Assembly: GCA_017445385.1 (NCBI GenBank)
Contig: JAFSUG010000029.1
Span: 1 to 64,000 of the forward strand
Origin: Oscillospiraceae bacterium
GTDB taxonomy: Bacteria > Bacillota > Clostridia > Oscillospirales > Oscillospiraceae
Length of the DNA stretch: 64,000 nucleotides
Direction: 5' to 3'
The notes below the pieces were generated by a model that saw nothing but the letters and a program-made list of their open reading frames with translations, searched no databases and was not told where the DNA came from. A program made the position numbers and the translations under genes. This document shows positions 9,921 to 14,555 of the stretch, in pieces; the first letter of the stretch is position 1, and every line of letters begins with the position of its first letter.

Positions 9921-9966
9921 GTTATTGCACTTCGCGCCGGTTCCCCTGCGCGAAATCGCAATCAAT

Positions 9967-10132
9967 CCATAGCTCTCCGCAGCTTATTAAAGCGCGACAG
10001 TCGGGCGGATGTTCTCCGAACGACCAGGAAAAGGTTGCAAAGCTTTTCCTTCGGCAACTGTCCCTTTTTCGCGCGGCAACGGCCTTGCAAGCCTTTGCGC
10101 CGCGGATACTGATGGCAGATGCACCTCTATCC
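9967..10132 (-). promoter_or_regulatory. Lysine riboswitch (L box)
   Basis: The minus strand carries the conserved L-box core in order: GGATAGAGGTGC, then AGTAT, then GGGACAGTTGCCGAAGG, then ACTGTC, and finally GGAGAGCTATGG, which closes the P1 helix with GATAG. It is about 166 bases long and is followed by the transcription terminator before dapA. From established knowledge of the class, lysine binding should favour termination and shut off dapA-dapB-ddh-lysA-lysC. Confidence 0.93.
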
Positions 10133-10167
10133 TTTCATTGCAAAATTCAATTTTTAGAATTGCCACA

Positions 10168-11000: not shown

Positions 11001-11034
11001 AAGGATGCGCATGAGAATCATGCGCATCCTTTTA
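10999..11034. terminator. Bidirectional terminator between deacetylase and folD
   Basis: The 16-base arms AAAAGGATGCGCATGA and TCATGCGCATCCTTTT are perfect around GAA. It serves both converging genes. Confidence 0.9.
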
Positions 11035-11877
11035 TTCCGTTTCAGCCGCGCGGACGACGTGGTCCATCAAAACCGCGGACGTGACCGCTCCGACACCGCC
11101 GGGGACGGGCGTATACGCCGCGGTAAGCGACGATGCTTCCGGCTGCAGATCGCCGGCAAGCGTTTCCCCTTCCCAGCTTGCGCCAAGGTCCAGAACGACC
11201 GCGCCGGGGCGGATATGCTCCGCGCCGATCAGCCCTGCCGAGCCGGCAGCGGTCAGCAGAATGTCCGCCTGCCGCGTTTGCGCGGCAAGATCGCGCGTTT
11301 TACGGTGGCAGACGGTGACCGTTGCGTTTTTTTCAAGCAACAGCATCGCCGCAGGCTTTCCGATCACCGCGCTGCGCCCGACGACGACGGCTTTTTTGCC
11401 GGAGCAATCAAAGCCGTAATAATCGAGCAGGCGGATGCACGCTTCCGCCGCGCAGGGCGTGAAGCCCCACGGTTTACCGAGGTATGTCCCTGCTGCGGAA
11501 AGCGGCGTTACGCCGTCTACATCCTTTTCCGGTTTGATCGACGCGCAAAGCGCTTTTTCCGCGCCGTGCAGATGGTGCGGCAGCGGCAGAAAAATGAGAA
11601 TACCGTGGACGCTTCGATCTGCGTTGAGCCGTTCGATCTCCGCGCGGACGGTTTTTTCATCGGAAGACGGCGCAAGCGTAACCGTCTTTACCGCGACAAG
11701 CGTGCTTTCAGCGCTGCCGAGCAGGCGTTCACGGTAGCCCGCGGCGGCAGGGTCATCCCCCACGCAAAGCAGCGCAAGCGTTGGGGTGACGCCTTGCGCG
11801 ATACAGTTTTCGGCGCGTTTTTTTACTTCGTTAAGCAGAGCCTGCGCAGGTTCCGCTCCGCTCCAGCAAATTGCCAT
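11032..11877 (-). CDS. folD: FolD-family methylene-THF dehydrogenase lacking cyclohydrolase residues
   Basis: 281 residues, normal for FolD. The dehydrogenase landmarks are intact: KPEKDVDG, VVVGRSAVIGKP (dinucleotide-binding region) and TPVPGGVGAVT. The cyclohydrolase site is not. The tyrosine of GDDPAAAGY is present, but the residue four positions later, a lysine in E. coli (Lys54) and human (Lys56) enzymes, is leucine. The glutamine normally preceding LPLP (human Gln100) is phenylalanine (FLPLP). I infer a monofunctional dehydrogenase, with the neighbouring FchA supplying the cyclohydrolase step. The start overlaps the fchA stop (TGATG). Confidence 0.9.
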   Translation of the reverse strand: MAICWSGAEPAQALLNEVKKRAENCIAQGVTPTLALLCVGDDPAAAGYRERLLGSAESTLVAVKTVTLAPSSDEKTVRAEIERLNADRSVHGILIFLPLPHHLHGAEKALCASIKPEKDVDGVTPLSAAGTYLGKPWGFTPCAAEACIRLLDYYGFDCSGKKAVVVGRSAVIGKPAAMLLLEKNATVTVCHRKTRDLAAQTRQADILLTAAGSAGLIGAEHIRPGAVVLDLGASWEGETLAGDLQPEASSLTAAYTPVPGGVGAVTSAVLMDHVVRAAETE

Positions 11878-12503
11878 CAGGGTTCTCCTTTCAGCGCGCT
11901 TTGCACGCTTTCAAACACGCGCGCGGCTTTTTCGCCCGATTTGAGCAGCTCCGCTGCGCGGCTTTCCAGCGCGGCAGCTTTCGCGCGGTTTTGCATGGAT
12001 TTCGTATTGATAAAAATATTCAGGCTTGCGCTTTCGAGCGCGGCTTTCGCAAGCGAGGCGCAGCAGCCGACGTCGCTGAGGGCAAGGCGCGAGCCGATTT
12101 TTTCAAGGCGCGCGCTCAGATCAATCACATTGCGGCACTGCTCCATAATGGCAAGCGGCGCAGTGCAGGCGGTTTCCAGCGCGTTTTCCAAATTCTGCGC
12201 GCGGTTTGGATCGTCCTTCGCCATGGCATACGACGCGGCAAGCGGCAAAAAGCATTCCGCATCCGCGCGGACAAGATCGAGCAGCGCATCGCGCAGATTT
12301 TCGCACTGCGCTTTGCATGCCTGCATTTCCGCTTCTACGCTTTCATACGATTTCTTGCCGAGGGTTAAATTTGCCACCATGCTGCCGAGCGACGCTGCAA
12401 GCGCGCCGACAAGCGCAGAGGCGCCGCCGCCGCCCGGCGCAGGCGACGCCGAAGAAAGCAAATCCGCAAACGCGCGGCAGGAAATCTTGGTTGTATCTTC
12501 CAT
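11877..12503 (-). CDS. fchA: Methenyl-THF cyclohydrolase FchA (cyclodeaminase family)
   Basis: A 208-residue alpha-helical protein of the formiminotransferase-cyclodeaminase C-terminal family. SPAPGGGGASAL near residues 19-30 is the folate-site signature. Stand-alone members act as 5,10-methenyl-THF cyclohydrolase (FchA) or formimino-THF cyclodeaminase. Coupling to a FolD that has lost the cyclohydrolase residues favours the former. The start at 12503 has GGGAG; the longer upstream frame would begin above the -10 box of its own promoter. It is transcribed away from the folT riboswitch. Confidence 0.88.
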   Translation of the reverse strand: MEDTTKISCRAFADLLSSASPAPGGGGASALVGALAASLGSMVANLTLGKKSYESVEAEMQACKAQCENLRDALLDLVRADAECFLPLAASYAMAKDDPNRAQNLENALETACTAPLAIMEQCRNVIDLSARLEKIGSRLALSDVGCCASLAKAALESASLNIFINTKSMQNRAKAAALESRAAELLKSGEKAARVFESVQSALKGEP

Positions 12504-12593: not shown

Positions 12594-12705
12594 GACCTGA
12601 CAGGAGTAAGGTCAGCGCGTTAAGTGCCGCCGGATGGGAGGTTGCCGGCGGACGAAGGGGCTTGCCCCGCGGTGCTGATCTGCTGCCGCCTGCCGAATAC
12701 AGGTC
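12594..12705 (+). promoter_or_regulatory. THF (tetrahydrofolate) riboswitch
   Basis: The aptamer core matches THF class I: CAGGAG, GTCAGCGCGTTAAGTG, GGATGGGAGGTTG, CGAAGGGGCTTGCCCCGCGG, GCTGATCTGCTGCC, then CCTG pairing back with CAGG. Outer GACCTG (12594-12599) can pair with CAGGTC (12700-12705), extending P1. It lies immediately before a folate transporter gene, as is typical of the class. Confidence 0.93.
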
Positions 12706-12714
12706 TATTTTGCA

Positions 12715-12744
12715 ACCTCCTCCAGACGAATGGAGGTCTTTTTT
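12715..12744 (+). promoter_or_regulatory. RBS-sequestering, terminator-like hairpin of THF riboswitch
   Basis: ACCTCC (12715-12720) pairs with GGAGGT (12732-12737), which contains the folT ribosome site, and is followed directly by CTTTTTT. The hairpin could block translation, end transcription, or both when folate is bound. Confidence 0.7.
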
Positions 12745-13287
12745 ATGTCTGAAAACGCTCGTTTTTCCGCGCGCAGGATCGCAGCCGACGGTATTTTGAT
12801 CGCGCTGTTCTTCCTTTTGAGCCTGCTCTCATTTGAAGTTGGCGGCGTGAAGCTGACGCTTGACGCGTTTCCGGTTTTGATTGCCGCCGTTTTATTCGGT
12901 CCAATCGACGGTTTTCTCGTTGGACTGCTCGGCGCGTTTTTAGAGCAGATGGCGCACTTCGGCTTTACGGCAACGACCGCGCTTTGGATCCTGCCGCCGG
13001 CGATCCGAGGACTTGCAGTCGGGCTGGGGCTGAAAAAAGCGCAGCTTGGCTCGATTCGCTATTTCGCGGTGAATCTCTTTGCCGCGCTTCTGGTTTCCTG
13101 CGGAAACACGGCGGTTTTTTACGCAGATTCAAAGCTGTTCGGCTACTATCAGTATAGCCTGATTTTCGGCGTTTTCTTCTGGCGGATCATCAGCAGCTTG
13201 CTGACCGGCGCGGTAATTGCGGCGATTGCGCTGCCCGTTTTCTCGGCGCTGAAAAAAAGCGGCATCGGAAAGGATCTGCGTCTATGA
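12745..13287 (+). CDS. folT: ECF transporter S component for folate
   Basis: A 180-residue membrane protein with about five or six hydrophobic helices, of the energy-coupling-factor S-component type. The LTLDAFPVLIAAVLFGP and GFLVGLLGAFLEQM segments fit FolT proteins, and the THF riboswitch in front makes folate the likely substrate. It needs an EcfA/EcfT module, which is not in the window. The ATG at 12745 is chosen because GGAGG lies eight bases before it; an earlier in-frame ATG at 12730 overlaps that ribosome site. Coupled to folC by ATGA. Confidence 0.92.
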   Translation: MSENARFSARRIAADGILIALFFLLSLLSFEVGGVKLTLDAFPVLIAAVLFGPIDGFLVGLLGAFLEQMAHFGFTATTALWILPPAIRGLAVGLGLKKAQLGSIRYFAVNLFAALLVSCGNTAVFYADSKLFGYYQYSLIFGVFFWRIISSLLTGAVIAAIALPVFSALKKSGIGKDLRL

Positions 13288-14555
13288 ACGCGCGGGAGGC
13301 AATCGAGTACATCCACTCGGTAAGCTGGAAGGGCAGCGTCCCCGGTCTTTCACGGACGGAGGAGCTCTTAAGGCGGATCGGCAATCCCGAAAAGCAGCTC
13401 AGATTTATCCACATTGCCGGGACGAACGGCAAGGGATCGACTGCGGCGACGCTCGCTTCGATTTTCCGCGCTGCCGGGTATCGGACAGGACTTTACACGT
13501 CGCCGTATCTGATCCGCTTCAACGAGCGGATCCAGATGGACGGCGAATGCATCACGGATCGGGAGCTTGCCGAGATCACGGAGTTTATAAAGCCGCACGC
13601 CGAGGCGATGGAAGACACGCCCACGGAATTTGAGCTTGTGACTACAATCGGATTTGAATTTCTCCGCCGAAAACGCGCGGAGATCGTTATTTTAGAAGTG
13701 GGCATGGGCGGAGAACTGGATTCCACGAACGTGATCCCCGCGCCCGAAGCCGCCGTGATCTGCAACATCGGGCTTGACCACACGGAGTATCTCGGCGCAA
13801 CGCTTGCGGAGATTGCAAAGACGAAAGCCGGAATCATCAAAAGCGGCTGCGTTTGCGTGCTGTATCCGAACGAAAAAAGCGTGGAAAATGCGGTTGCGGC
13901 GAAATGCCGCGCGGTTGGCGCGGAGCTGCGCATTGCGGACTTTTCCCTGCTCTCGCCGGTTTCCCACAGCCTGGACGGGCAGGAATTTTCATTTAGCGGC
14001 AAGCGATACAAAACGCCGCTGCTGGGCGAGCACCAATTAAAAAACGCAGCCGTTGCGCTGACGGCAGTGGATGCGCTTTGCGAAAAGGGATGGAATATCC
14101 CCCAAGCGGCAATCACGCGCGGCATGGCGCAGACCGTCTGGCCCGGGAGATTTCAGATTTTGCGGCGCGAGCCGCTGATGATCATTGACGGCGGTCACAA
14201 TCCGCAGTGCATGGACGCGATGGTGAAAAACGTTGACGACTATCTGCAAGGGTACGACTTGACGATTCTCACCGGCGTACTTGCGGACAAGGATTACAAG
14301 GCGATGTACCGGGAGCTTGCAAAGCGCGCGAGCCGCTTTTTAACCGTTACGCCGCCATCGCCGCGCGCGCTGGACGGCGCGGAGCTGGCAAGGTATTTGC
14401 AGACGCTCGGCAAAAGTGCTGAACACTATACCGCGATCGACGACGCGGTAGCTGCTGCCCTTTCGATTGCGCGGCAGACGGGCGGCGCGGTGCTTGCCTG
14501 CGGATCGCTTTATATGCTCGGCGACGTGATCCGAGCGGAAGAAAAGAGACATTAA
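13284..14555 (+). CDS. folC: Folylpolyglutamate synthase / dihydrofolate synthase
   Basis: A 423-residue Mur-ligase-family enzyme that adds glutamates to folates (and, in many bacteria, makes dihydrofolate from dihydropteroate). The P-loop HIAGTNGKGST is near residue 44. LYTSPYLIRFNERI and EVGMGGELDSTN are family motifs, and IDGGHNPQCM marks the C-terminal domain. It shares ATGA with folT, so the riboswitch controls uptake and intracellular trapping of folate together. Whether it has dihydrofolate synthase activity cannot be seen. Confidence 0.93.
   Translation: MNAREAIEYIHSVSWKGSVPGLSRTEELLRRIGNPEKQLRFIHIAGTNGKGSTAATLASIFRAAGYRTGLYTSPYLIRFNERIQMDGECITDRELAEITEFIKPHAEAMEDTPTEFELVTTIGFEFLRRKRAEIVILEVGMGGELDSTNVIPAPEAAVICNIGLDHTEYLGATLAEIAKTKAGIIKSGCVCVLYPNEKSVENAVAAKCRAVGAELRIADFSLLSPVSHSLDGQEFSFSGKRYKTPLLGEHQLKNAAVALTAVDALCEKGWNIPQAAITRGMAQTVWPGRFQILRREPLMIIDGGHNPQCMDAMVKNVDDYLQGYDLTILTGVLADKDYKAMYRELAKRASRFLTVTPPSPRALDGAELARYLQTLGKSAEHYTAIDDAVAAALSIARQTGGAVLACGSLYMLGDVIRAEEKRH

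Follow-up and report, generated by a model that had tools for sequence, protein, structure and literature searches.

The window, by which we mean the whole 64,000-nucleotide stretch of DNA that was analyzed, carries fchA and folD as an adjoining gene pair with fchA directly upstream; divergent from it are a THF riboswitch and the folT-folC genes (Table 1). Since the riboswitch is on the other strand from fchA-folD, it is placed to act on folT-folC; it also adjoins fchA in three congeners (L003, L004, and L011). The two genes had been described as overlapping by TGATG and as fused by translation. The overlap was found as described and amounts to one base, which rules out a true FchA-FolD fusion in the window; with folD likely possessing its own ribosome-binding site, translational fusion is an overstatement. 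The genome of this gut-type anaerobe (1.51 Mb, 95% complete) contains a single FolD (its sole PF00763 gene), a single FTCD_C protein, and a single full-length Fhs; fhs is located on a different contig from fchA-folD. A lysine riboswitch (positions 9962-10137, minus strand) is present ahead of dapA-dapB-diaminopimelate dehydrogenase genes (9818-7148, minus strand), an ordinary arrangement.

Table 1. Positions of the genes, diagnostic residues, and signals at the fchA-folD locus and beside it.
Feature	Position	Strand	Description and basis
folD	11032..11877	minus	281-codon ORF; predicted cyclohydrolase-less methylene-THF dehydrogenase; PF00763 and PF02882
Asp121	11515..11517	minus	Folate-binding Asp, kept; E. 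coli D121/human Asp125
Phe96	11590..11592	minus	Codon TTT; aligns with E. coli Gln98/human Gln100
Leu52	11722..11724	minus	Codon CTG; aligns with E. coli Lys54/human Lys56
Tyr48	11734..11736	minus	Active-site Tyr, kept; E. coli Tyr50/human Tyr52
TGATG	11875..11879	minus	fchA stop and folD start with one shared base (A)
fchA	11877..12503	minus	Putative methenyl-THF cyclohydrolase of the FTCD_C family with an ATG start, 208 aa; PF04961, E=4.8e-56
AAAGGAG	11885..11891	minus	Likely folD ribosome-binding site within the 3' end of fchA; read from sequence
THF riboswitch	12600..12693	plus	RF01831, 76.4 bits; ahead of folT-folC, divergent from fchA-folD
folT family	12730..13287	plus	ECF transporter S component; TIGR04518, 50.5 bits, under the 60-bit cut-off
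folC	13284..14555	plus	Folylpolyglutamate/dihydrofolate synthase; TIGR01499, 388 bits

The window FolD belongs to the FolD family by both of its domains (PF00763, 88.1 bits; PF02882, 168.4 bits), and its AlphaFold2 model (mean pLDDT of 93.5) matches the structures of bifunctional FolD proteins with TM scores of about 0.93-0.95. We aligned it with E. coli FolD, using a reference sequence that is identical to PDB entry 1b0a over 288 residues. In this alignment, Y48-R-E-R-L52 of the window protein is found opposite Y50-V-A-S-K54, and G-I-L-I-F96-L-P-L-P opposite G-I-L-V-Q98-L-P-L-P. Two hallmarks of bifunctional FolD proteins, the Tyr-x3-Lys motif and the Gln before LPLP, are therefore missing, with Leu52 and Phe96 in place of the Lys and the Gln. 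Both replacements had been claimed in the original prediction, and neither results from misalignment: no alignment places a gap between the Tyr and the missing Lys, and the next lysine follows 16 residues past the Tyr, so that a lysine displaced by a small gap can be discounted. The NAD(P) motifs (GRSAVIGKP and PVPGGVG) and the folate-binding residues Tyr48 and Asp121 are intact, as had also been stated. All NCBIfam matches listed for this protein are bifunctional models and fall below their cut-offs, and no solved structure of a FolD of this type is evident among the PDB matches of the clade profile, which are all titled bifunctional, C1-THF synthase, or eukaryotic MTHFD.

The FchA protein of the window possesses the FTCD_C domain, and among its PDB matches the methenyltetrahydrofolate cyclohydrolase 7vg4 (123.5 bits) scores above the cyclodeaminases 1o5h (84.8 bits) and 1tt9 (59.1 bits). 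Its sole family match is the NCBIfam model FchA (NF045657), with 163.6 bits against an equivalog cut-off of 275 bits. This cut-off appears strict, since nine FchA-like proteins from the survey genomes also score below it (175-210 bits). We discarded PGGGG versus PGGGS as a motif dividing FchA from cyclodeaminases because it did not separate the classes.

To relate the loss of the two residues to the presence of fchA, we searched 60 relatives and 200 members of the phylum for FolD and FTCD_C proteins. The 200 distinct FolDs that we then examined come from 193 genomes; adjacent loci were picked by the coordinates of, or similarity to, FchA and not by FolD residues. Lys54 and/or Gln98 are missing in all 73 FolDs whose genes adjoin fchA, whereas both are intact in 62 of the 67 FolDs from genomes without any FTCD_C protein (73/73 versus 5/67 changed; Fisher p of about 3e-34, uncorrected for relatedness). 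Of the five exceptions, one is a FolD of the window type; the others are extra or divergent FolDs, and in three of these four cases an intact FolD was read from the same genome as well. In the metagenome-assembled genome with the window-type exception (G031; 91% complete, 6% contaminated), folD follows directly after fhs (L024, G031:C2:70634-73147) and no fchA was detected; either sequence is missing or this genome depends on spontaneous hydrolysis.

Genomes with an FTCD_C protein encoded elsewhere than beside folD contributed 40 intact and 18 changed FolDs. The mere presence of an FTCD_C protein was rejected as a proxy for FchA, as 34 intact FolDs (40 if weak matches are included) come with a clear FTCD_C protein that does not adjoin folD. 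At least one of these non-adjacent proteins is part of a histidine-degradation cluster, with a formiminotransferase-like ORF and an imidazolonepropionase-like ORF beside it (L081). Fhs did not serve as a discriminator either; fhs scored over the cut-off in 54 of the 60 relatives, with both types of FolD. We also ranked the 66 positions that are at least 95% conserved in the FolDs of FchA-free genomes by how often they are lost in FolDs with the gene order fchA-folD. Lys54 came first (0% kept) and Gln98 second (2% kept), which argues against chance, while Tyr50, Asp119, Pro100, Pro102, and most glycine positions are 98-100% kept.

In a tree of 194 FolD rows, calculated with the diagnostic columns removed, the window FolD falls inside one clade of 50 rows (SH-aLRT of 98), in which the Lys is replaced by Ala, Leu, Ile, or Val, the Gln by Phe, Leu, Met, or Tyr, and the gene order is fchA-folD. 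FolDs of the window genus are on long branches (0.4-1.07). A separate clade with the order folD-fchA retains Lys54 and has Gln98 changed to Glu, and fchA is almost always located directly downstream (L067, L068, L135, L177, and others); within it, a subclade has the Lys changed to Leu and the Glu to Leu or Met. Further cases of loss are on long branches (G229, with Val/Leu, and G135). Near an FchA-like gene, Streptomyces sulfonofaciens (L352) encodes a FolD with Lys54 changed to Ile and the Gln kept, which may be an additional independent case from Actinomycetota.

A scan of named genomes, which was seeded with the alignment of the window-type clade and hence gives its spread and not its frequency, found window-type FolDs in Lachnospiraceae (Blautia hansenii, Robinsoniella, and Pseudobutyrivibrio), Oscillospiraceae, Coriobacteria, Treponema, Synergistaceae, Cryosericum, and Nitrospirota; most of these folD genes directly follow fchA. 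The loss is therefore not specific to the window genome, and the original wording that the enzyme "has become" a dehydrogenase only should not be read as an event in this genome: judged from the tree, the loss of the residues is old in the window lineage, is a trait of a widespread FolD clade, and has been repeated elsewhere.

Lys56 and Gln100 of the human enzyme set up the active site, and folate is bound by Tyr52 and Asp125 (PMC3368264). In E. coli FolD, cyclohydrolase activity is undetectable in the K54N variant, which keeps about 19% of the wild-type dehydrogenase activity; Q98H retains about 1% of the cyclohydrolase and about 8% of the dehydrogenase (PMC5688156). These results predict that a FolD devoid of both residues would have no cyclohydrolase activity. 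We consider it very likely that the window FolD is an NAD(P)-dependent methylene-THF dehydrogenase lacking the cyclohydrolase half-reaction, and that FchA supplies this step. With Leu and Phe in place of the Lys and Gln by which the hydrolytic step is shaped and activated, FolD would interconvert methylene-THF and methenyl-THF with NAD(P); FchA, encoded directly upstream in an operon with a one-base overlap, would interconvert methenyl-THF and 10-formyl-THF; and Fhs, encoded elsewhere in the genome, would link 10-formyl-THF to formate. We infer the loss of the cyclohydrolase, the retained dehydrogenase, the direction of the flux, and the role of FchA as physiological replacement from sequence. 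Co-occurrence, gene order, the published mutants, and clostridial precedent strongly support the part of the original prediction that concerns residue loss and replacement by FchA; its dehydrogenase-only part requires compensation elsewhere in the window FolD because the E. coli single mutants at these two positions lose most of their dehydrogenase activity as well. The in-frame fusions of FchA and FolD in two relatives, described below, also speak for the proposed pairing, whereas the window-type FolD of G031, found without fchA, and the sub-cut-off NCBIfam score of the window FchA count against it.

This same drop in dehydrogenase activity, together with the long branches in the genus, could be taken to mean that FolD is decaying or inactive, with Fhs and FchA making formyl- and methenyl-THF and serine hydroxymethyltransferase providing methylene-THF. 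We regard this as extremely unlikely, since the clade keeps all remaining catalytic and NAD(P) motifs, the fold is predicted with confidence, and folD is intact and near-universal as a single copy in the family. FolD might instead still be bifunctional through another residue or a water network, with FchA being an extra enzyme or having another job, e.g., as a formimino-THF cyclodeaminase. FchA and cyclodeaminases do belong to one Pfam family, within which the NCBIfam model and the PGGGG motif both failed to draw a clean line, and some FTCD_C proteins of the survey, such as the one mentioned above, reside in histidine-degradation clusters. However, changes at either position leave E. coli FolD with no or nearly no cyclohydrolase, nearly all survey genomes with the double loss encode an FTCD_C protein as well, and fchA adjoins folD, in several relatives directly after fhs, and not histidine genes; retained bifunctionality is therefore very unlikely.

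It is also unlikely, in our assessment, that the association merely reflects vertical inheritance of an operon, with a single ancestral drift of the residues that had nothing to do with FchA. Shared ancestry does account for much of the statistical association, because the main clade has one origin: window-type FolDs are essentially that single well-supported clade, and an independent-pairs test, with just four well-supported contrasts, has low power. Against a single drift stands the recurrence of the loss beside fchA on separate branches that differ in their substitutions and show the opposite gene order, namely in the Gln-to-Glu clade and its Lys-to-Leu subclade, in the two long-branch cases, and in the Streptomyces FolD (Lys to Ile only).

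A FolD devoted to the dehydrogenase step and complemented by FchA has counterparts in known systems. In Acetobacterium woodii, the genes are arranged as fhs1-fchA-folD-rnfC2-metV-metF (PMC10472528). As in the window, fchA directly precedes folD there; this cluster is a Wood-Ljungdahl methyl-branch operon of an acetogen, whereas fhs of the window genome is on another contig. Aluri, Sah, Miryala, and Varshney, writing in 2016 (Microbiology 162:145), reportedly found that Clostridium perfringens has a monofunctional FolD dehydrogenase, a separate FchA cyclohydrolase, and Fhs. The split between a dehydrogenase and FchA is what this system, compared by its described activity, shares with the window pair; the window genes differ by their one-base overlap and by their location beside folT/folC and a THF riboswitch, away from fhs. 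Wohlfarth is said to have described, in 1991, an NADP-dependent methylene-THF dehydrogenase of Peptostreptococcus productus. The MTHFD of this organism, now Blautia producta, is called monofunctional in PMC6443876. We liken it to the window FolD via its congener Blautia hansenii: the B. hansenii FolD (L300), encoded directly after fchA, has Lys54 replaced by Ala, unlike the Leu of the window protein, and Gln98 by Phe. That some microorganisms have a separate FchA is also stated elsewhere (PMC7219735, citing Aluri 2016). The bifunctional enzymes from E. coli (1b0a) and humans (MTHFD1 DC domain, 1a4i) have the two-domain fold, the Tyr and Asp, and the NAD(P) site in common with the window FolD, which lacks their catalytic Lys and Gln for the cyclohydrolase step. 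NAD-dependent yeast MTD1 (1edz), going by reference titles, likewise counts as monofunctional within the MTHFD family; it is very distant from the window protein (E=4.8e-7), eukaryotic, and of a separate lineage.

Although no fusion is present in the window, FchA and FolD are joined in two relatives, each represented by one assembly. A congener (G002) encodes a single in-frame FchA-FolD ORF of 508 aa, in which no start codon lies close to the FolD portion (L003:1495-3021, minus strand), and a member of a different genus of the same family (G283) encodes an in-frame fusion of 494 aa with an ATG start (L254:480-1964, minus strand). No further FchA-FolD fusions were found in 291 genomes of the class, where seven other spanning matches all contain a stop; long FolD frames in G276, G318, G511, and G227 are not FchA fusions. 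The overlap in the window and the fusion in its congener suggest balanced, roughly 1:1 co-production of FolD and FchA, possibly with a hand-over of labile methenyl-THF between them. Such tight co-production argues against the proposal that the split renders the individual steps separately controllable, which has no support from genes that overlap by one base here and form one polypeptide in a congener.

The split of FolD and FchA is already known in kind from a few clostridia; what is new is its breadth over a large FolD branch, the two-residue rule, and the re-fusion of the two enzymes. None of the papers that our searches covered, which took in a minority of subscription titles, states this rule or an FchA-FolD fusion; the residues may be treated in Sah and Varshney (2015) and in Aluri (2016). 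On balance, it is probable that loss of Lys54/Gln98 is a reliable and repeatedly evolved signature of FchA-dependent, dehydrogenase-only FolDs in several phyla, that some lineages re-fused the two enzymes (494-508 aa) and so rebuilt a lost bifunctionality with an unrelated cyclohydrolase domain, and that natural insensitivity to carolacton-type FolD inhibitors may follow. Annotation pipelines label this FolD "bifunctional," and for many gut anaerobes metabolic models consequently assign it a reaction that is probably beyond the enzyme; the two residues offer a simple rule for correcting this. For the question of why one bifunctional enzyme gives way to two specialists, the clade constitutes a natural test; the fusions offer one for what is gained by rejoining them.

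In E. coli FolD, Lys54 mediates the binding of carolacton, and resistance changes map to K54 and Q98 (PMC5688156); bacteria with window-type FolDs are, for this reason, predicted to be naturally insensitive to carolacton-like inhibitors. A different change at this lysine, Lys54 to Gln combined with Asp121 to Glu, was noted in FolD paralogs at five loci (L160, G125; L188, G192; L234, G113; L235, G153; L236, G209), and an intact FolD is encoded in the same locus at L160, L188, L234, and L235.
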